Virus record (IMG/VR): IMGVR_UViG_3300044530_000342
Span: 1 to 40,955 of that record
Reading direction: 5' to 3' (one strand)
Source: a virus
Length of the DNA: 40,955 nt
Below are positions 6,770 through 28,781 of this stretch, piece by piece (positions within the stretch are counted from its first letter, which is position 1; every line of letters begins with the position of its first letter). A program made the translations under genes and the position numbers. The notes below the pieces were generated by a model. That model had not been told where the DNA came from, did no database searches, and saw only the letters and a program-made list of their open reading frames with translations.

Positions 6770-7391
6770 ATTTGAATAGTATTTGATTCCAATTTTTACC
6801 AAACTCAGCTTCCAACTTCTTTACCTCTATCTTATGCCTCCAATTCCTTAAACTCTCCCTTATCTTGCTTATTTCCTCTTTTTTATTATTCCTTAGATAA
6901 GCATGGCCTACTTTTACTCCGTGATTAACTCCCATCTTTATACCGTCTTCACGCATCCGCTTGCTGATTATCAAGTCATAAAACCAATACCAATAACCCT
7001 CATCTAACATATATTTCTCAAATACCCATGTCCTAAACATTGGAGCGGTAAACTCTATAAAACTAACCTCTTTAACTAATCCTGACCCATCGCATTGTAT
7101 ATGTTTGTGATCTGAATTAAACGAAGGATGAACAGCCCCATAAGTACCCATGCCGTTTACTAGGTTATCAAAGTCAATCTTGGTAAAAGTAATATTACTC
7201 ACAAACCAGACGAACTCATATTGCATACCTAAAACGTGCTTTTTATACGCATCATTGTAGGCTCTACTCATTGAACCAACACCATCACGGTAAGCATAAA
7301 ATATATCAGCATCTAATCCTACTAAACAATCCAATGTTTGTTGAAAACTTTGCTCTAAATATTCTAAAACTATGATGGCCGTTTTTTGCAT
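6759..7391 (-). CDS. Glycosyltransferase family 2-like protein
   Basis: The 210-aa protein looks like a GT-A fold. The N-terminal strand AIIVLEYLEQ is followed by a nucleotide-sugar-binding-like region and EFVWFVSNITF, which stands where the metal-binding DxD of GT2 enzymes would be. The canonical DxD itself is absent, so activity may be altered or the protein may be a divergent transferase. A late Trp/Tyr-rich patch (YWYWFYDL) could bind acceptor sugar. It is the first gene of the five-gene glycosyl block. Confidence 0.7.
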   Translation of the reverse strand: MQKTAIIVLEYLEQSFQQTLDCLVGLDADIFYAYRDGVGSMSRAYNDAYKKHVLGMQYEFVWFVSNITFTKIDFDNLVNGMGTYGAVHPSFNSDHKHIQCDGSGLVKEVSFIEFTAPMFRTWVFEKYMLDEGYWYWFYDLIISKRMREDGIKMGVNHGVKVGHAYLRNNKKEEISKIRESLRNWRHKIEVKKLEAEFGKNWNQILFKYEN

Positions 7392-8549: not shown

Positions 8550-8824
8550 GAATAGAACTTTTTTCAAACAAGGCAACTGACTTAGCACTCGACTACAAAG
8601 AATACCCAAATGGGATAGACTTTGAAGGTGATGTTTGGACTGATGAAGATGGGGAGGTGGATTATCGTGGTAGGTTTACTACATTCGATGAAAACGAAAA
8701 CGAAGTTGAAATAGAGATCGAACCAGACCCGTATGAACTTTGTGATGCGCTTAACGTGGATATTGAATCTGCTATTCAAGATTGGAAGTCCGACTATTTA
8801 AGTTACTTAGCAGATACAGAATAA
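8546..8824 (+). CDS. Highly acidic small protein, possible DNA mimic
   Basis: The 92-aa protein is rich in Asp and Glu throughout, with very few Lys or Arg, so its isoelectric point must be very low. The densest acidic stretch is residues 25-62. Early phage proteins of this kind include DNA mimics that block restriction enzymes or nucleoid proteins, but no specific family is recognised. The stop codon TAA is the first part of the TAAC core of the attC-like site at 8822, as also happens with the methyltransferase gene at 8904-9656. Confidence 0.65.
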   Translation: MRIELFSNKATDLALDYKEYPNGIDFEGDVWTDEDGEVDYRGRFTTFDENENEVEIEIEPDPYELCDALNVDIESAIQDWKSDYLSYLADTE

Positions 8825-8950
8825 CGGTCGCGGCTTGGCGAAGTGGGGGAAGTATACCCACCAAAGCCGATTAGAATTACTAATGTTCAATAACAGATAA
8901 AAGATGATAGAAAGCAGTCAGCCCCCATTTTGCCAAGCCGATGTTAGCGG
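8822..8950. repeat. attC-like imperfect palindrome, site 1
   Basis: The left arm CGGCTTGGCGAAGTGGGGG (8831-8849) pairs with the right arm CCCCCATTTTGCCAAGCCG (8922-8940) over 19 positions, two of them G-T pairs. The outer ends are TAAC (8822-8825) and GTTAGCGG (8943-8950), separated from the arms by spacers of unequal length (5 and 2 nt). This is the layout of integron attC sites. The enclosed loop carries the start of the following methyltransferase gene. A nested partial right arm (8857-8870) could pair alternatively with the left arm. Confidence 0.65.
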
Positions 8951-9656
8951 AAGGCATGGGTTAATTCAAGGGAACGCAATGGATTTAATTTGCGATTTAG
9001 ACGACCACAGTATTGACCTAACAATATTAGACCCTGATTATCAAGATTGGGATAAACTTTGTGGGGATGGTTTAATATGCCAATCAGTAAGAGTTACAAA
9101 ATTAACTGGAAATATTATTTGCTTTACAAAACAGCCGTTTGATTACGAATTGAGAAACGAAGTGAACCATATTTTTAGGCGTGAAATTATTTGGAGCTTT
9201 TCAAATGGTGGTGCTTGGGTAAGTAAGCGGATGCCACTTGTATCATTCCAAAAAATATTCTGGCTTACACTTACAAAAGATTTTTATATTGATGTAAGAA
9301 CTGGATTAGATTACAATGAAGGCACAAAATCAATGAAACGAAGTAGCAAGGTATTTGGAGACTATAAAGCAGAAGGAAGGCAATTTGATAAATCAGACGA
9401 AGGAACTTGGATAAGAGACCACTATCATTTTAATAAACCACATACAGGTAAAATACCTGCAAAGCCCAAAGATTTGATGCAAATACTTATTAAATGCTTT
9501 TGCCCTGAAAATGGGATTGTTTTAGATCCGTTTTTTGGAAGTGGAATAGTTGGAGAAGTTTGTCAAGAATTAAACAGAAAATTTATAGCATACGAAATTG
9601 ACGAACAAAGGGTAAAAATGTTCAATGATAAGCAGGGTGCTAATGCTTTCCGCTAA
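8904..9656 (+). CDS. Beta-class DNA methyltransferase, cassette-borne
   Basis: The protein has 250 aa. The segment HGLIQGNAMDLI (18-29) is the usual start of small beta-class N4/N6 DNA methyltransferases. Motif IV follows as DPDY (43-46) where DPPY is normal, and the SAM-binding motif I is DPFFGSG (208-214). The first 16 or so residues are encoded by the loop and right arm of attC-like site 1. No in-frame start after the arm keeps residues 18-25, so the ATG at 8904 is likely. The stop codon TAA lies in the CTAAC core of site 2. It probably modifies phage DNA against host restriction. The DPDY variant may change base specificity or reduce activity. Confidence 0.85.
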   Translation: MIESSQPPFCQADVSGRHGLIQGNAMDLICDLDDHSIDLTILDPDYQDWDKLCGDGLICQSVRVTKLTGNIICFTKQPFDYELRNEVNHIFRREIIWSFSNGGAWVSKRMPLVSFQKIFWLTLTKDFYIDVRTGLDYNEGTKSMKRSSKVFGDYKAEGRQFDKSDEGTWIRDHYHFNKPHTGKIPAKPKDLMQILIKCFCPENGIVLDPFFGSGIVGEVCQELNRKFIAYEIDEQRVKMFNDKQGANAFR

Positions 9657-9776
9657 CGGTTCTGGGCTTTGCGAAGGCAGGGCTAAATAGTACAAAAGTT
9701 TAAATAATTACAAAAGAAAGTACAAATGTTGAAAACATGCACCAAAGCCCTGCTTTTGCAAAACCCTTGTTAGCAG
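9650..9776. repeat. attC-like imperfect palindrome, site 2
   Basis: The left end CCGCTAAC (9650-9657) with arm GGGCTTTGCGAAGGCAGGGCT (to 9684) faces the right arm AGCCCTGCTTTTGCAAAACCC (9746-9766) and GTTAGCAG (9769-9776). The arms pair imperfectly, with GCAGGGCT/AGCCCTGC exact. Total length is 127 bp, against 129 bp for site 1. The loop again contains the start codon of the next gene. Confidence 0.65.
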
Positions 9777-10417
9777 AAGGCACGGGTAATTTGGTCGAAT
9801 TGTTCGCTGGTTCTCGATCCGTTGGAAGTGTAGCCGAAGCAAAAGGAATGAATGTTTTTAGTGTTGATTGGCAAAAGTTTGATAAAATAGATTTAGCCAT
9901 TGATATTGAGGAATTACAAACAAAAGACGTTCCATTTATTCCTGATGTGGTTTGGGCTTCGCCTGATTGCACTACTTACACTATTGCAGCAATAAGCACA
10001 CACCGAAACGGAACAGAACCAAAAAGCGAATACGCTAAAAAATGTGATGCAGTAAATAAACATTTTATAAGCCTTATTGATGAATGGCTTTTAATAAATC
10101 CTAAAATGGTATTCTTTATTGAAAACCCAAGAGGAATGATGCGTAAAATGCCATTTATGCAAAGATTTAAAAGGCATACGGTTTGGTATTGTACTTATGG
10201 CGATGACAGAGCAAAGCCAACGGATATATGGACTAATAGCGAAGTATGGCAACCAAGACCAATGTGCCACAACGGAAACAAAAATTGTCATCACCAACCT
10301 GCACCAAGAGGATCTAAAACAGGAACACAAGGCAAAAAAGGAAGTTTTAACCGTTCAAAAATACCAAAAGAATTATGTCAAGAAATAATCGAATGTTCAA
10401 TTTTAGCAGTAGTGTAG
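9737..10417 (+). CDS. C5-cytosine DNA methyltransferase-like protein, cassette-borne
   Basis: The 226-aa protein has motif I LFAGS (22-26), a catalytic-loop candidate SPDC (75-78) with Cys78, and motif VI ENP (129-131). These fit the compact phage Dcm-like methyltransferases. Motif IV is normally PPC; here the residue before Cys is Asp. A His/Cys cluster near residues 177-187 (CHNGNKNCHH) might bind metal. The ATG at 9737 lies in the loop of attC-like site 2, so the first 11-12 residues come from its right arm. It probably protects phage DNA; whether it is active is uncertain. Confidence 0.8.
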   Translation: MHQSPAFAKPLLAEGTGNLVELFAGSRSVGSVAEAKGMNVFSVDWQKFDKIDLAIDIEELQTKDVPFIPDVVWASPDCTTYTIAAISTHRNGTEPKSEYAKKCDAVNKHFISLIDEWLLINPKMVFFIENPRGMMRKMPFMQRFKRHTVWYCTYGDDRAKPTDIWTNSEVWQPRPMCHNGNKNCHHQPAPRGSKTGTQGKKGSFNRSKIPKELCQEIIECSILAVV

Positions 10418-22425: not shown

Positions 22426-23502
22426 CTATGGGTTCACAATACGGAAAGAAGTCAATCCGTTCACACCCTCTAATTGGTCACCTGCCTTGTAAATATCAGT
22501 AGGCAAGTAAGCAAAAGCATAGTTTAAAGCAAGTTCAATAGTCCAAGTTTTAGCACCAGAATTGTTACAAGAATACTCTGCTCTGTAATCAAATGTTACA
22601 GGAATAGTTGCATCTGGGTAAGCTAATACACCTTGCTTAATTGAATCATCGTCAATGTAGTTAATGTTTCCATCTGCTCCAATGAACTCGTTAAAGTGTA
22701 GTAATTGAACTGAACCAGGTACGATAGCCACTAAATCATCAGCATTAGAAGCATTCATTGATACACGATCAGAGAAAGCCATTCTAATACCTGATTGAGT
22801 TGCGTAAACACCTGAATCAATACCAAGATCACCACAACAAGCAGCTCCTAAAGCAGCTCCATAATTCCATAGTTTCTCACCACCAAATACGAAAGGCTTC
22901 ATAGCATCTTCGTTAGCAGTAGAGTTGTATGCAATCGTTTCTAAAAGGGCAGTAGAAATTCCACCTCCGCTTAGTTTGGTAGCAGCTTGAATTTGAGTAG
23001 TAGTTCCAGCCGGATCACCATTGATAACATCACTTGCAAAGTTACCAAAGTTAGCCAACATAGAGATTGCTAAATCAGTTTCAAACTTACGAAGTACACC
23101 GTCCATCATTTTTTTGATCTCATCGGCAATGTAACTTGGGTTTGTTTGACACATATAAAGCAAGTCGCTGGTAGTCCAAGTCTTTACTACTCTCGATCCA
23201 TCGGTAGGGTCAATAGTGTAAATAGTTGAAGTAATACCATCTCCATCACCTGTATCACAAGTAATACGACCACCGCTGGTAATGTCGGCTTCGGTTAATC
23301 TTTGACCATAAGTAACAACGAAATCTCTCAATCCATTTGGACGGAAGTTAATCGCTGTATTAATAGTGTCATTTTTGTTAATTGGGGATAAAAGGAAACG
23401 AGTTAAGTTTAAGTTTCCTAACTTTTGGTTATTATAACCCCATGAGTTTAAAAGCGAATCCTGTACGGAATTACACGCTACGTATGTGCTAATAGTTGAC
23501 AT
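22426..23502 (-). CDS. Major capsid protein (putative)
   Basis: The 358-aa protein follows the scaffold-like gene and precedes a terminator, the usual setting of a major capsid gene. It has no signal or membrane segment and shows a mixed alpha/beta pattern. An N-terminal arm is followed by a long helix with PSYIADEIKKMMDGVLRKFETDLA (about 121-145, spine-helix-like) and a strand-rich end with VTFDYRAEYSCNN. This fits an HK97-type fold, though the call is by context. A conserved two-hairpin leader lies 45 nt upstream of its ATG, shared with the putative major tail gene. Confidence 0.75.
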   Translation of the reverse strand: MSTISTYVACNSVQDSLLNSWGYNNQKLGNLNLTRFLLSPINKNDTINTAINFRPNGLRDFVVTYGQRLTEADITSGGRITCDTGDGDGITSTIYTIDPTDGSRVVKTWTTSDLLYMCQTNPSYIADEIKKMMDGVLRKFETDLAISMLANFGNFASDVINGDPAGTTTQIQAATKLSGGGISTALLETIAYNSTANEDAMKPFVFGGEKLWNYGAALGAACCGDLGIDSGVYATQSGIRMAFSDRVSMNASNADDLVAIVPGSVQLLHFNEFIGADGNINYIDDDSIKQGVLAYPDATIPVTFDYRAEYSCNNSGAKTWTIELALNYAFAYLPTDIYKAGDQLEGVNGLTSFRIVNP

Positions 23503-23539
23503 AAAAAATCTAAATTAAAAATTAATAATCAGTTTATAC

Positions 23540-23602
23540 CTTTTTATTGGTATGGCTAACCACAGTTTTAAGTAGATTTTTTGGGATACTAGCCCACTAA
23601 AT
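23540..23602 (-). ncRNA. Two-hairpin leader element upstream of the capsid gene
   Basis: On the minus strand AT(T)TAGTGGG starts hairpin A (23582-23596: TGGG, 7-nt loop, CCCA). Hairpin B follows (23548-23562: TGGT, 7-nt loop, ACCA), then ATAAAAAG. The same element occurs at 28264-28325 before the putative major tail gene. Exactly 45 nt separate hairpin B from each ATG. No promoter was seen between the scaffold stop (23611) and this element, so it acts on a longer mRNA or marks processing. Confidence 0.7.
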
Positions 23603-23610
23603 AACGGTAA

Positions 23611-24426
23611 TTACTTACCTGTTTGAGCCTCTGCTAATTTACGCATCTTCTCTAAGTAGGCTGCTTGACTTGCAGGTAGCCCTTCTGCTTTCTTTTCACT
23701 CTCTAATTTCTTATTTGTAGCCCCATTCTTTTTAATGAGGTTTTCTTTTTCTGCTAATTGAGTAAAGAACTTTTTGGCGGTCATTTTGCCTACTCCATCT
23801 TTTAACCAATTTTCCCCGGTAGCATCGTAAACAATCAAGTCATTTCCTTCTTCAACAAAAGTAACCTTTCCGTTTACCTCATCGTTCCATAAACCACCTT
23901 TAGTATATTTGCTTACACCGTCTACCCAATCAATAGATTCAAAGATGCTGTTAACCTTACCATCTAATACCAACTTTTGATACTTCTTTTCGGCCTCAGT
24001 TAATATACCTTCTTTTGCAGATTCGGCTTCCGCTATTTTAGCTTGTGCCTCTTTTAACGCTTCATCAAGTTGCTTTTTTTCATTTGCCAACTTAATTAAC
24101 TCCTCTGCATTTTTACCTGTACCTTTAGAAGCCTCTTTTAAAGTTTCCATTTCTGCTACTTGGTTTGCAATCTTAGCCTCCAAAAGTTCTACCATTTCAT
24201 CGTATTGCTTTCCGTTGGCATCCGACCCTAACAACTTTGATAGTCTGTTTTCAGCCTTTGCCGTTGCTTGTGCATAACGCTTTTTTAATTCAGCATCATG
24301 TATATCTGCTTTAACATAAGTCTTCCCAAAGGCTTCGTTAACATCATCCATTGTGGTTTCATCTGTTACCTCAAAACTTGGTAAGAACTGTGTTACTATT
24401 TCTTTTTGTTCGCTTGTTAATGACAT
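23611..24426 (-). CDS. Scaffolding-type coiled-coil protein
   Basis: The 271-aa protein is highly charged. A long coiled coil (about 45-150, rich in Ala/Glu/Lys) is followed by a more globular segment (about 160-225) and a charged Lys/Glu-rich end. Position immediately before the capsid gene and the Ala/Lys/Glu composition are typical of phage scaffolding proteins, which direct capsid assembly and then leave. The sequence similarity to a named family is not established. Confidence 0.7.
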   Translation of the reverse strand: MSLTSEQKEIVTQFLPSFEVTDETTMDDVNEAFGKTYVKADIHDAELKKRYAQATAKAENRLSKLLGSDANGKQYDEMVELLEAKIANQVAEMETLKEASKGTGKNAEELIKLANEKKQLDEALKEAQAKIAEAESAKEGILTEAEKKYQKLVLDGKVNSIFESIDWVDGVSKYTKGGLWNDEVNGKVTFVEEGNDLIVYDATGENWLKDGVGKMTAKKFFTQLAEKENLIKKNGATNKKLESEKKAEGLPASQAAYLEKMRKLAEAQTGK

Positions 24427-24428
24427 AT

Positions 24429-24800
24429 TTATTCTGCTTTAGTTGTTTTTGCTTTCTTTGGTTCGTCTAACTTTGCTTTCATTTCAGCTATTTGAGCTTC
24501 CATTTCTGCTACTTGTTTTTGATATTCGGCATTTGCCTTTTCAAGTTTAGCCGCTTTGTCGTTTCCTAAAATACGATCTTCAATCAATCCATATTCAGAA
24601 AATCTACCAGCTTCATAATCTTCTTTCAACATCAATCCTTTATTCCCGATTTCTTTCTTCCATAAAGGGTTTCTTGTTTGCGACTTTGAAAACTCAATCT
24701 CTTTTAAGAACAGGCTTTTGTTTAATGTCTTTTTGCCATCTCTTAGGGTTTTTTCTACATCGACCCTAACTAATGTAATGTTTCTTGCGTTGTTGCTCAT
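24429..24800 (-). CDS. Hypothetical capsid-module protein with coiled-coil end
   Basis: The 123-aa protein has a beta-type N-terminal half and a C-terminal coiled coil (about 75-115, KANAEYQKQVAEMEAQIAEM) with a basic tail. A TTG at 24818 in the same frame would extend it, but the promoter -7 box (24816-24823) overlaps that TTG. The ATG at 24798-24800 is therefore the likely start. It is the first gene of the scaffold/capsid transcript and may assist capsid assembly. Confidence 0.7.
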   Translation of the reverse strand: MSNNARNITLVRVDVEKTLRDGKKTLNKSLFLKEIEFSKSQTRNPLWKKEIGNKGLMLKEDYEAGRFSEYGLIEDRILGNDKAAKLEKANAEYQKQVAEMEAQIAEMKAKLDEPKKAKTTKAE

Positions 24801-24815
24801 AATAAAATGTTTGTA

Positions 24816-24847
24816 CAAATTTAATTATAATATTCCAAATAACAAAA
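24816..24847 (-). promoter_or_regulatory. Promoter of the scaffold/capsid unit
   Basis: TAAATTTG (24816-24823) with TTTTG (24843-24847) gives a 19-nt spacing between TTG and TAnnTTTG, matching the Bacteroidota consensus. The region reads TTTTGTTATTTGGAAT, almost the same as the promoter at 7688-7720. It decides the ATG start of the gene at 24800. Confidence 0.75.
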
Positions 24848-24872
24848 TGTTAATTGTGAAAAATTTAACAAA

Positions 24873-26726
24873 TTAAGTTTGGGCAGCAGCATCTAATATA
24901 CTCGTTGCCGTACTTACTACCGGGTTCAATCTCGTTACCACCTCATTAGCATATCCATAAATGATACTCTTTTGCTCTGGGTAGTCCTTACTCCAAAAGT
25001 CTGGATAGTCAGATAAAGCATTAGTAATGAATGAACTTATAGAATCATGTATTACCAAGTCAAACTTATCTGCCGTACTGCCTACCATTGCCCTAGATTG
25101 TAAGTCATCTTTATTCCATAGCCTATCTATTCTATAAATAAATTCTAACTCAGCCTCGCTTGATGGGCTTGTATTGAACCTTGTATTGTTACTTTCAGTT
25201 ACTAACCTTTGTACATAAACGCTTGGCAATCCGTTCTTTTTAGCCTCGGATATTTCAGCCGTTATATCTGCATTCGTTTTTAAACTGAAGTTTTTAGGCT
25301 TGGTAATCGAAGGCATAACAAACGAAGTGCCATAACGCATCCATCCCATTGCCTCAATAGTGAATCCCATTAATGCAAACAACTCATTACTAAACTGAAT
25401 TAAGAAACTTACAAACTCCTCTTTTTCTAACTCCTTACCAGTTGCCGTTGCTGCATTTGCTTTTTCACTTTCAAAGAATTGCCCAAAAGCTGATTTCTTT
25501 TTTTCCTCAATTATCTTACCTAAGTAGTCTAATATGGCCGAGTCAGGTGCCGCAAATTGAACAGGCGGAGTCATTGGTAATATGTTATCACCTAATCCAT
25601 TTTGAGTTCTAGCCACAACTTCATATACTCCCGTTGGGCTATGGTTGCTTTGCTTTCCGCTTCCATCACAACTAGGGCAAGTAGCATAACCACCACTCAT
25701 ATTTATAATCCTACCACCGTTACACCTTGCTCCTGTGGTTTGATCTTGGTAACTACATGGGTCTACCACCGCTATAATAACAGGGTAGGCCATCTTATTA
25801 ATACTCATTGAACGAGTAGCACTCATTCTAATAACATCGTTTAGGTCAGGTATTGCACCTGCAAAATGGCTGTTATATAATATCCTTCCATCATCTATCT
25901 TTACTGCCCTGCCTTGTAACTTCCTTGCTGGCAACCATCCCCAATTATGTTCATACACTACAACGTATTCAAATACGGGCAAGTGGTCATTGTCGAATCC
26001 TGTTTGTCTAATTTCTACAATCTTTTCACTATCGTAAAATTTAAACAACAATCCATTCTCATACTTAACCCCTCCGTAAGTGTACTCATAATCGGTTTCG
26101 TCAATAACAAGTAAATACTCATTATCAATGTAATCAACTATTTTAACCTCCTTTATAATCTTTGCAATAGGTTCTATTAACTCTGATTGGTCTGGAATAA
26201 AGTCATCTTCATCATTGTAATATCCGGGAATATATCTTGGTTCAATTACCAAAACTTCATTAGGATAGTCTATTTTTTTATCTCTTACAATGTCAAAAAA
26301 GTAATCAATTACAGAATGATAAGCTGGGTAATCTTCGTAAAAATATTCCTTTTGCGTTTCATCCCATCCGTCAATAGCGTAGTTTTGATCGTTGGCAATT
26401 ATCTTTGTTTTGTCTTTTGCTCTTACCCAAGTTGAATTAGTATAAGCCTCATACAATCCCATTTGATATTCCCATTCCGATTCACTTTGGTTAGGTGCTT
26501 TGCTTTTTAATATCTCATAAGGGAAAACTTCTAACTCTGAATGAACCGCTACTTTATGATACTGCAAAACAGCATCCTTATAAATAGGGTTTAATTTGGG
26601 TAGGCTCTTAACCGATTCATCCCATTTGTATGACTTATCAAACGACCTACTAAAGTCATCTAGCTTCCTACGTTGCAATTCTTTTGCAGCGTGCCTAACA
26701 AGTTCTTGGATAAATTCTATTTCCAT
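24873..26726 (-). CDS. Portal protein (putative)
   Basis: The 617-aa protein has the size and position of a portal, before the scaffold/capsid unit. A basic/aromatic N-terminal part is followed by beta-rich segments, and a long helix-rich C-terminal half carries SAFGQFFESEKANAATATGKELEKE and MGWMRYGTSFVMP. A Cys cluster at about 335-370 (PCSY, ARCNGG, CPSCDGSG) looks like a zinc-binding knuckle inserted in the body, which is unusual for classic portals but seen in Bacteroidota phage homologues as far as I recall. It forms the DNA entry ring that the terminase docks on. Confidence 0.7.
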   Translation of the reverse strand: MEIEFIQELVRHAAKELQRRKLDDFSRSFDKSYKWDESVKSLPKLNPIYKDAVLQYHKVAVHSELEVFPYEILKSKAPNQSESEWEYQMGLYEAYTNSTWVRAKDKTKIIANDQNYAIDGWDETQKEYFYEDYPAYHSVIDYFFDIVRDKKIDYPNEVLVIEPRYIPGYYNDEDDFIPDQSELIEPIAKIIKEVKIVDYIDNEYLLVIDETDYEYTYGGVKYENGLLFKFYDSEKIVEIRQTGFDNDHLPVFEYVVVYEHNWGWLPARKLQGRAVKIDDGRILYNSHFAGAIPDLNDVIRMSATRSMSINKMAYPVIIAVVDPCSYQDQTTGARCNGGRIINMSGGYATCPSCDGSGKQSNHSPTGVYEVVARTQNGLGDNILPMTPPVQFAAPDSAILDYLGKIIEEKKKSAFGQFFESEKANAATATGKELEKEEFVSFLIQFSNELFALMGFTIEAMGWMRYGTSFVMPSITKPKNFSLKTNADITAEISEAKKNGLPSVYVQRLVTESNNTRFNTSPSSEAELEFIYRIDRLWNKDDLQSRAMVGSTADKFDLVIHDSISSFITNALSDYPDFWSKDYPEQKSIIYGYANEVVTRLNPVVSTATSILDAAAQT

Positions 26727-26729
26727 AGT

Positions 26730-26789
26730 TTAATACTTTGGTCTTGGTCTTGGTTTAGGCTTACTACAAGCCCCACAAACTTTACTCAT
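26730..26789 (-). CDS. Possible 19-aa CxxC micro-protein
   Basis: An ATG frame encodes a 19-aa peptide with CGAC (residues 5-8) followed by a Lys/Pro/Arg tail (KPKPRPRPKY). It overlaps the glycosyltransferase stop by 8 nt and ends 3 nt before the portal ATG, so it fits the gap exactly. It might bind zinc or nucleic acid. It is too short to be sure of translation. Confidence 0.35.
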   Translation of the reverse strand: MSKVCGACSKPKPRPRPKY

Positions 26790-27684
26790 ATCGCTTAATT
26801 TGAGGTTTAATGTTCAGTCTTATCCCATCTAAAACAACTAACTTATGTTTAACTAAGTGATCGTATTTATATGGGTTTTGTTTTCCTAATATTTTCTTAT
26901 GTATCATGTTAGCCTGTAAATCGTAGTTACGATAATGGGCTATATACTTTCCACTTTTACCACCCCAATAACTCATGATAGGGGCTATCTCTTTTAGCTT
27001 AGTTATTCCTAAGTTCTCATTCTCTATACGGCTTGTCATTAATATAGGGTAGTGATCTCCACTGTTAGGAATCTTAATCTCGTAATCGATCACAGCCGCC
27101 GCCGCATCAAATCCTAATTCATCTGGGAATCTTTTTCCCCATAGGCTTTCAAAGTTTTCAATGAAATTAGCACTTGCTTGTTTCCAAAACTTAGCCGCCT
27201 CTTTGTTTTTCTTTGAATAAATTATACTCGAATTAATTTCAGGTACGTTTGAACTTACACCGTAGAACTCGTTTAACTGTTCCCATGTAGCCCATACACA
27301 CTTCCAATCTTCTTTATAGTTTGCAGTATTGTAAACTTGCAACCCTATATTTAAGTCTTTGCACTTGTCAAAGATCGAATCCACTTCATTTATTAGAATA
27401 CTATCAGCATCTATAAATAAGTTTTCATCATGTTTAAAATACTTGTAAAGGTTTAACTTTGCTTTGCCGGGCTGAAACATTCCTTTCTTATCGGTATAAT
27501 CACACAAAGCAACTTGCTCTACTGAATCAAATAACCCTAATTCATCAGGTATTAATTTAACACCATCATGTAATAAAGTAATATGCAGCAATGGACTGTA
27601 ATACTTTACCGAAGCGGCAAGGTTCACAGCCCATTGAGCATAACTAGGATGACCTAGCGATAGTATGTAAATTCCTCTACTCAC
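26782..27684 (-). CDS. Glycosyltransferase, GT8-like (GT-A fold)
   Basis: The 300-aa protein has the GT-A nucleotide-sugar pattern. An N-terminal strand and Rossmann-like part is followed by FIDADS with the metal-binding DAD at 92-94, and later NSSIIYSKKNKEA and a DELGFDAAA region. It starts at GTG (27682-27684), overlapping the stop of the putative major tail gene by 1 nt. A transferase coupled to a main structural gene suggests glycosylation of the virion protein itself; this is inference. Confidence 0.8.
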   Translation of the reverse strand: MSRGIYILSLGHPSYAQWAVNLAASVKYYSPLLHITLLHDGVKLIPDELGLFDSVEQVALCDYTDKKGMFQPGKAKLNLYKYFKHDENLFIDADSILINEVDSIFDKCKDLNIGLQVYNTANYKEDWKCVWATWEQLNEFYGVSSNVPEINSSIIYSKKNKEAAKFWKQASANFIENFESLWGKRFPDELGFDAAAAVIDYEIKIPNSGDHYPILMTSRIENENLGITKLKEIAPIMSYWGGKSGKYIAHYRNYDLQANMIHKKILGKQNPYKYDHLVKHKLVVLDGIRLNIKPQIKRYE

Positions 27685-28226
27685 TATGCAAATATCCCAG
27701 CAGGTGCAGTTACTCTTGAAGGGAAACCATCAGGCTTAGTTCTCCAAGTAATTGATACGTTATATCTTTGGTTACCTGTTCCCATATCATCATTAGCAGG
27801 GGTTACAACAAGGGTACACAAGTAGTCAGAAACTACCATTAGTTGATCCTCCTCAAAGTTATACCATGCAATATAAACGTTACGGCCATTGGCAGTACTC
27901 CAAAATGTATCGTTATTTCCGCTAACGTTAGGGTCTAAAAAAGTGAAAGTATGGTTCATTCCTCTTAGTTGCTGATCAGCTCCGTTTGCTCTCGAATTAT
28001 CTACCATAATAGCGGCAGCATCGGCATAAGTTCCTTTACCATCACGGATAATGTATGCTGAGTTAGCGGCAATGTTAGTTGTCCACTCAGTAGCATCACT
28101 GTAATCGGTGAAGGTATTATCTTGGTCTATAATAGCAAAAGCTGAGATACCAGCAATAAGATCGTTGCCACAAAGATCACTTACATAAGTTCCTAAGTCG
28201 CCTAAACAATCGTTAATTATACTCAT
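27684..28226 (-). CDS. Putative major tail protein
   Basis: The 180-aa protein is beta-rich and Asn/Thr/Asp-rich, with no signal or membrane segment. Its size suits a tail-tube subunit, and a strand-rich C-terminal half (YLCTLVVTPANDD, then YNVSITWRTKPDGFPS) is consistent. The call rests mainly on expression signals: its own promoter-like box and the same two-hairpin leader found only before the capsid gene, as expected for the second most abundant virion protein. A head decoration protein is the main alternative. Confidence 0.55.
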   Translation of the reverse strand: MSIINDCLGDLGTYVSDLCGNDLIAGISAFAIIDQDNTFTDYSDATEWTTNIAANSAYIIRDGKGTYADAAAIMVDNSRANGADQQLRGMNHTFTFLDPNVSGNNDTFWSTANGRNVYIAWYNFEEDQLMVVSDYLCTLVVTPANDDMGTGNQRYNVSITWRTKPDGFPSRVTAPAGIFA

Positions 28227-28263
28227 ATTGAGAAAATTAAAAGGTTAATAAAAGTTTGATTGT

Positions 28264-28325
28264 CTTTTTGTTGGTGCGACTAACCACAGCTTTAGCAGTT
28301 TGGATGGGATGCAAGCCCACTAGAT
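28264..28325 (-). ncRNA. Two-hairpin leader element upstream of the putative major tail gene
   Basis: Hairpin A (28305-28319) and hairpin B (28272-28286) each have a 4-bp stem and 7-nt loop, with the same stem sequences as at 23540-23602. The two conserved blocks match that copy at 18 of 21 and 22 of 26 positions, with most changes in the loops. Hairpin B ends 45 nt before the ATG, as in the other copy. Transcription predicted from 28341-28348 would start just before the element. Confidence 0.7.
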
Positions 28326-28340
28326 AGTGAAAAGAATATA

Positions 28341-28368
28341 CAAATATAAATATTTTTTAGATAACAAA
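28341..28368 (-). promoter_or_regulatory. Promoter-like site of the putative major tail gene
   Basis: TATATTTG (28341-28348) matches TAnnTTTG. TTTG at 28365-28368 is only 16 nt away, shorter than usual. The upstream part reads TTTTTGTTATCT, similar to the promoters at 7688 and 24816. Predicted start is near 28334, so the leader element would lie at the mRNA 5' end. Confidence 0.5.
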
Positions 28369-28415
28369 AAAATTTATTATCTTAGCCGTGGTTTTTTCAT
28401 CTATGTTTGTTTTTA

Positions 28416-28441
28416 CCTAGCCCCGTAAGGCTAGGTTTTTT
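28416..28441 (+). terminator. Hairpin with T-run on the plus strand
   Basis: CCTAGCC (28416-28422) and GGCTAGG (28429-28435) form a perfect 7-bp stem with a 6-nt loop, followed by six T on the plus strand. On the minus strand, where all nearby genes lie, the hairpin follows the lipoprotein stop but is followed by TAAAAAC rather than T. It may block antisense transcription or act as a minus-strand mRNA 3' end. Confidence 0.55.
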
Positions 28442-28781
28442 ATTGGCAGTATGCCGTTGTGCTTTGAGGTTGGCTTTGTTGCCATATAATATCCCCATCT
28501 TGCTCGAATACTATCGTAACATTATCCGAAAAATAACTAATATAAGAGTTAACTAATAGGCAGTTTAACCCACTCGAATACCGATAGGCTTCCAAATGTT
28601 TAACTCCTACCACATCCCCATAGTAAACTGTTTCGTGATACATTGTTTCCCCTACTTTGGTATTGTTTGTAATGTGAACAAAACAACTATCACAAGTAAC
28701 GGTAATATCTACTTTTTGATCTGACTTGCCCGGCATACATGATGCCATAAGTAATAATGCTGCTATTGCTGTGTATCTCAT
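28440..28781 (-). CDS. Small lipoprotein
   Basis: The 113-aa protein starts with a lipoprotein signal peptide (AIAALLLMASC, lipobox Cys15). The mature part is a small beta-rich domain with Cys pairs (TCDSC near 29-33, further Cys at about 72 and 112). It sits among virion genes with a hairpin at its end, as expected for a moron-type gene. Phage lipoproteins often block superinfection by masking a receptor; that role is inferred. Confidence 0.75.
   Translation of the reverse strand: MRYTAIAALLLMASCMPGKSDQKVDITVTCDSCFVHITNNTKVGETMYHETVYYGDVVGVKHLEAYRYSSGLNCLLVNSYISYFSDNVTIVFEQDGDIIWQQSQPQSTTAYCQ

Follow-up and report, generated by a model that had tools for sequence, protein, structure and literature searches.

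Known leader pseudoknots and the present element

The nearest known phage structure to the element described here is the gene 32 operator of T4 (and the equivalent leaders of T2 and RB69), in which an H-type pseudoknot in the mRNA leader is followed by an unstructured A/U-rich stretch up to the start. Gene 32 mRNA is the most stable mRNA of T4, and its pseudoknot was considered in a 2010 review to be possibly the sole viral pseudoknot in translational autoregulation (PMC3014915). The present element lies on the minus strand of a 40,955 nt viral record (IMG/VR IMGVR_UViG_3300044530_000342; this whole stretch is called the window below), where one copy precedes a capsid-candidate gene and a second precedes a gene for a tail-tube-like protein. 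Comparison across lineages gives good support to a 5′ leader of the capsid-candidate mRNA that folds into two tandem H-type pseudoknots, a probable cis-acting RNA, and in computed pairing the 25–35 nt preceding the ATG are A-rich and open, a likeness to the gene 32 leader. Unlike the present element, the gene 32 leader belongs to an E. coli phage with Shine-Dalgarno initiation, has one pseudoknot and precedes the gene for a single-stranded DNA-binding protein (SSB); neither gene downstream of the window copies encodes an SSB. The viruses carrying the tandem element are probably an uncultured group infecting Bacteroidota bacteria, hosts that do not use Shine-Dalgarno initiation.

Three other described systems are comparable. 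The STAXI motif also consists of tandemly repeated small pseudoknots, of unknown function and found by comparison (Weinberg 2010; PMC2864571), yet it usually has three repeats with frequent UUCG loops and is located near SSB, antirestriction or integrase genes. No unit described here has a TTCG tetraloop, the neighbour is the capsid candidate, and no STAXI match was found in three stretches at a permissive E-value. Stabilisers of the papA and bla-hairpin type are positioned at the very 5′ end of the transcript, a place predicted here in five of the seven lineages, and protect from 5′-end-dependent decay (PMC3997798); they are plain hairpins of bacterial genes, whereas the present element is made of paired pseudoknots whose architecture is kept while the sequence changes. 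The exoribonuclease-resistant RNAs (xrRNAs) of flaviviruses are likewise tandem pseudoknotted elements, one of which stops RNase J1 in vitro (PMC5760640), but they have a ring-like fold, belong to eukaryotic viruses, and the exonuclease concerned was not found above cut-off in the likely hosts here. Leader pseudoknots as such are already known; the tandem element differs from those described, and the function proposed for it below is put forward conditionally.

Two leader copies in the window

The minus-strand copies are located at 23603–23538 and 28326–28262, each ending 35 nt from its ATG. An earlier note on the window had placed them at 23540–23602 and 28264–28325, and they are indeed present there: the segments 23512–23603 and 28234–28326 form the top non-trivial self-BLASTn match of the window (95 columns, 76% identity, E=6.7e-10), the runner-up being far weaker (E=1e-4). 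The motifs AGTGGGCTnGnATCCCA and CTGTGGTTAGnCnnACCAA each have two mismatch-free occurrences in the window, both at the two leader copies; with up to 3 mismatches allowed, their total counts were equalled by 1/100 and 3/100 shuffles, respectively.

Both hairpins that the note had described, TGGG/CCCA and TGGT/ACCA with 7 nt loops, are present, the second (hairpin B) standing 45 nt from both start codons, and these first stems (S1) are identical in the two copies although the downstream genes differ. The description as two short hairpins is nonetheless incomplete, given that each loop can also pair with nucleotides just 3′ of its hairpin (stem S2, across a connecting strand, L3), which gives two tandem H-type pseudoknots. 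Because the loop of hairpin B can pair with GGT in the capsid copy and GAC in the tail copy, the element reaches about 10 nt beyond that hairpin. In the capsid-gene copy, pseudoknot 1 (23571–23596, minus strand) has S1 TGGG/CCCA, S2 AGTA/TACT and an A-rich L3, AAAAATC, a layout that fits the other lineages described below; pseudoknot 2 (23538–23562, minus strand) has S1 TGGT/ACCA, S2 GCC/GGT and L3 ATAAAAA, and is followed by 35 nt to the ATG. In the tail-gene copy, pseudoknot 1 (28294–28319, minus strand) has the same S1 with S2 GCA/TGC and L3 TCCAAAC, and pseudoknot 2 (28262–28286, minus strand) the same S1 with S2 GTC/GAC and L3 ACAAAAA, again with 35 nt to the ATG. The spacing is identical in both copies, with a connecting strand of 7 nt.

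The loop/tail pairs change in a compensatory manner between the copies: GTA/TAC in unit 1 of the capsid copy becomes GCA/TGC in the tail copy (T-A versus C-G), and GCC/GGU in unit 2 becomes GUC/GAC. These changes, together with double changes across lineages, now supply the covariation support that the note had found lacking. Taken from the window alone, the evidence for pseudoknots is modest. Plain short hairpins or inverted-repeat DNA operators, kept by a recent duplication of the 95 bp leader in this phage, would account for the invariant S1 stems, for S2 stems of just 3–4 bp and for a similarity that continues, some 95 bp in all, in the direction of the start codons. This reading is improbable and already disfavoured, as the S2 stems of the L051, L055 and L084 subclades comprise 4–7 bp with compensatory changes, the connecting strands are A-rich as is typical of H-type pseudoknots, and a DNA operator would have no need of loop-to-tail pairing.

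Tandem pseudoknots in other lineages

Exact and near-exact searches of IMG/VR recovered the window leader sequence only from L018, a near-identical record of the same phage; the 20 other matches lacked the second half, and single-protein searches with the capsid and tail proteins gave no new relatives. Terminase relatives gave access to records with capsid and tail homologues, and a profile of the capsid-candidate protein found 33, later 36, IMG/VR loci. Seven lineages were distinguished, comprising the window, L050, the L051 group, the L055 group, the L075 group, L077 and L084/L085. Searches among cultured phages with three of the capsids gave no relatives, no capsid homologue was found in 395 sampled Bacteroidota genomes, and none was confirmed in a scan of GTDB contigs.

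In sequence the capsid leaders of the six other lineages are unlike the window's, yet each contains, in order, a TAnnTTTG box, pseudoknot 1, pseudoknot 2, 25–35 nt and the ATG. Each unit is a hairpin of 4–5 bp whose loop pairs with 3–7 nt that follow about 4–10 nt further on, the connecting strand being A-rich as a rule. Unit 2 of L051, for example, reads TCGGG-tgaa-GTTACC-CCCGA-aaaagta-GGTAAC, and its counterpart in L052 pairs GTTGCC with GGCAGC; other loop/tail stems are TTTCGCC/GGCGAAA in L055, TCGCC/GGCGA in L084 and TCTCC/GGAGA in L085. Double-sided changes between lineages are found at nearly every base pair of both units. The S1 opening is common to both units of one genome (GTCG in L051, L055 and L084; GTG in L050, L077 and the window; GCGG in L075), and the letters of the loops and S2 stems vary freely, also from one window copy to the other. 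The earlier note had proposed a cis-acting RNA acting on expression of the most abundant virion proteins. No direct sequence copies were found in related phages; the same architecture, with compensatory changes, stands in the same place before capsid-candidate homologues in six lineages, while the copy before the tail gene is not general.

A pairing test took in 16 units of 8 leaders. Loop-tail stems paired completely with their own partners in 14/16 units and with partners swapped between lineages in 53/224 combinations; a count of 14 was reached by 0/5000 permutations. The tandem score was attained by 0/200 dinucleotide shuffles for each of L051, L052, L055, L084 and L085, and in L051, L055, L064, L066 and L084 the capsid leader ranks as the top tandem-pseudoknot site within the whole 14–21 kb locus. 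Several results count against the structure. The cross-lineage parse was done by eye to maximise pairing, so that the shuffles and whole-locus scans are the fairer tests, and the weaker leaders were matched by shuffles (window tail copy 6/200, L050 11/200, L075 8/200, L077 15/200). Within the closely related L051 group full covariation is seen at one pair only. The window's loop-tail stems are short, at 3–4 bp, and its capsid copy fell below the threshold of the pseudoknot scan. For the window, then, the case for the structure is one of positional homology and compensatory changes, not of stability.

The layout is closely tied to one gene family. When a GTCG-type unit pattern was scanned over IMG/VR and 84,980 genomes, well-formed, box-anchored tandem pseudoknots occurred solely before the capsid-candidate family, and the other matches inspected did not have that layout. 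In GTDB genomes there were 53 GTCG-type matches; those inspected were chance-like, came from unrelated phyla and lacked the box-plus-pseudoknot arrangement. Only the window phage has a tail-gene copy beyond doubt. A tail relative, L202, has, 1.4 kb into its reverse complement, a TATATTTG box, GTGTG/GTGGG openings and possible pseudoknots GAAG/CTTC and CTT/AAG, which are suggestive but, being weak and recognised post hoc, too weak to count. The other tail leaders examined showed no tandem pseudoknot element.

Small riboswitches use H-type pseudoknots with A-rich tails, and a pair of structures close to a promoter resembles the put RNA of HK022, a two-hairpin antiterminator. It is nevertheless very unlikely that the element is a riboswitch sensing a ligand or an antiterminator acting in cis: no Rfam family was found at gathering score in the window or in six relatives, including preQ1, SAM and other small pseudoknot riboswitches, no ligand-pocket letters are conserved between lineages, and no terminator is seen between element and gene. 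No tRNA was found in the window.

Two cultured phages that are distant portal relatives, Croceibacter phage P2559Y and Parabacteroides phage PD691P4, have a capsid-position gene without a tandem pseudoknot in front. Their capsid-position leaders share a different hairpin (P2559Y about 6905–6925, PD691P4 about 10390–10405), GTG-CAAGGGTAA-CAC in the former and GCG-CAAGGGTAA-CGC in the latter, in which the loop is kept and the stem altered in a compensatory manner.

Promoter position and a possible 5′-end shield

The −7 box of Bacteroidota promoters occupies positions −12 to −5 (PMC9723704). In five of the seven lineages the TAnnTTTG box ends 4–7 nt before unit 1, and the predicted +1 therefore lies 0–3 nt before unit 1. 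The distance is larger in L050 (15 nt) and in the window tail copy (20 nt); the predicted +1 is 11–16 nt before unit 1 in two leaders, and one leader has no box. For the tail copy the box, TATATTTG, is located at 28341–28348 on the minus strand, and the predicted +1, at about 28336, precedes the GTGGG motif by 16 nt. In the relatives such boxes occur at about 0.0008 per nt; of 225 boxes in these genomes, 8 stand directly before a tandem pseudoknot scoring above 43, and 7 of those 8 are capsid leaders.

Two further features were noticed around these promoters. In the L051 group (L064, about 9865–9886) an inverted repeat, ACAATG-N9-CATTGT, sits in the capsid promoter between its −33 and −7 regions and resembles an operator for a transcription factor. 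On the plus strand of the window, 28402–28445 contains a TATGTTTG box and, immediately after it, a terminator-like hairpin, ACCTAGCC-CCGTAA-GGCTAGGT-TTTTT, with no plus-strand gene following; it could perhaps yield a very short transcript, divergent with respect to the tail promoter.

Accessible 5′ monophosphates stimulate RNase E/G, which was found in 61/61 sampled Bacteroidota genomes. What is observed is a repeated element of conserved architecture and covarying stems, in most lineages next to a predicted promoter and associated with one gene family. The likeliest reading, to which we give slightly less than an even chance, is that the element would shield the 5′ end of the mRNA against RNase E/G and so stabilise the capsid mRNA. 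With transcription predicted to start 0–3 nt before the first pseudoknot in most lineages, the RNA would be born with a closed 5′ end, sequestered from pyrophosphate removal and from 5′-end-sensing RNase E/G, while the A-rich 25–35 nt before the ATG would leave the start region open. A long-lived, heavily translated mRNA would then yield a very abundant protein. In E. coli, 5′-terminal hairpins impede RppH and stabilise mRNA (PMC3997798).

Both window copies fit such a shield poorly. The tail copy has a predicted 16 nt 5′ extension, so that the element is not 5′-terminal. The internal capsid copy has no −7 box and sits after the scaffold-like gene; it stays unexplained unless the mRNA is cut upstream of the element, and the model would need such processing here. 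A block to 5′-to-3′ exoribonucleases, with an effect like that of tandem viral xrRNAs, would account for 5′-terminal and internal copies alike; in vitro, one xrRNA is able to arrest a bacterial exonuclease, RNase J1 (PMC5760640). RNase J was above the cut-off in 0/61 of the sampled Bacteroidota genomes, so the obvious 5′-to-3′ exonuclease is missing from the likely hosts, and this block is hardly probable.

The main rival to the shield is that the pseudoknots are recognised by a protein, of the phage or of its host, which limits or times capsid (here also tail) synthesis, by analogy with the T4 gene 32 operator; protein bound at the pseudoknots would affect the start codon 25–35 nt downstream as well as the open A-rich stretch. 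The gene 32 leader has a similar layout, a 5′ pseudoknot of about 28 nt and then >40 nt of unstructured A/U-rich leader containing the start site (PMC535899). The S1 opening shared by both units of a genome would be expected if one factor reads both, and the window copies keep identical S1 stems before different genes. The free divergence of loops and S2 stems, even between those copies, argues against such a factor, as do the constant presence of two pseudoknots where gene 32 has one, a start codon that is not occluded and the lack of any identified RNA-binding protein gene. On balance a protein operator appears rather unlikely.

Genes surrounding the two copies

The gene after the first copy is an open reading frame (ORF) of 358 aa at 22426–23502 (minus strand). 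It belongs to an orphan family and owes the name capsid to its place behind the portal and scaffold-like genes. The portal protein (24873–26726, minus strand) matches PHROG 7376 (E=5e-17), and the scaffold-like ORF just upstream of the capsid-gene copy (23611–24426, minus strand) is assigned on position, with no family match. A profile search of PDB, Pfam, PHROGs and NCBIfam gave no family match for the capsid candidate, whose structure model is too poor to use; in profile comparisons the candidate aligns weakly with the capsid-position protein of P2559Y and with that of PD691P4, both times in the same region, which only hints at a shared stretch.

The first gene after the tail promoter is a tail-tube-like ORF of 180 aa (27684–28226, minus strand). 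Its best PDB fold matches are tail proteins, the Sf11 tail (E=2.2e-3, probability 0.99) and the SPP1 tail tube, obtained with a low-confidence model (mean predicted local distance difference test score 65). The gene labels of the earlier note are thus partly supported, ‘capsid’ by position and ‘tail’ by this model.

Between the tail-tube-like and portal genes, at 26782–27684, is an ORF that is glycosyltransferase-like by eye and has a weak PHROG match of unknown function. Elsewhere in the window, the second-best self-match (8822–8966 versus 9654–9791; 65% over 147 columns, E=1e-4) lies around the starts of two neighbouring methylase-like ORFs and is possibly an old duplication.

Significance

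To our knowledge, very little is known of how Bacteroidota phages reach very high capsid output. The element, a small covarying RNA located where the mRNAs of one gene family are predicted to begin, lends itself to simple reporter assays and could become an expression part for Bacteroides and Flavobacterium. It is missed by sequence search, nearly every base pair changing while the architecture stays. More tentatively than the shield itself, paired 5′-terminal pseudoknots may represent a new class of RNA element in phages, a ‘structural cap’, independent of sequence, on the virion-protein mRNAs of Bacteroidota phages. In such a cap architecture would be selected while sequence drifts, and it could be copied to a second structural operon. 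That pairing is kept while the letters change points to a specific RNA shape as an aid in making the viral shell.

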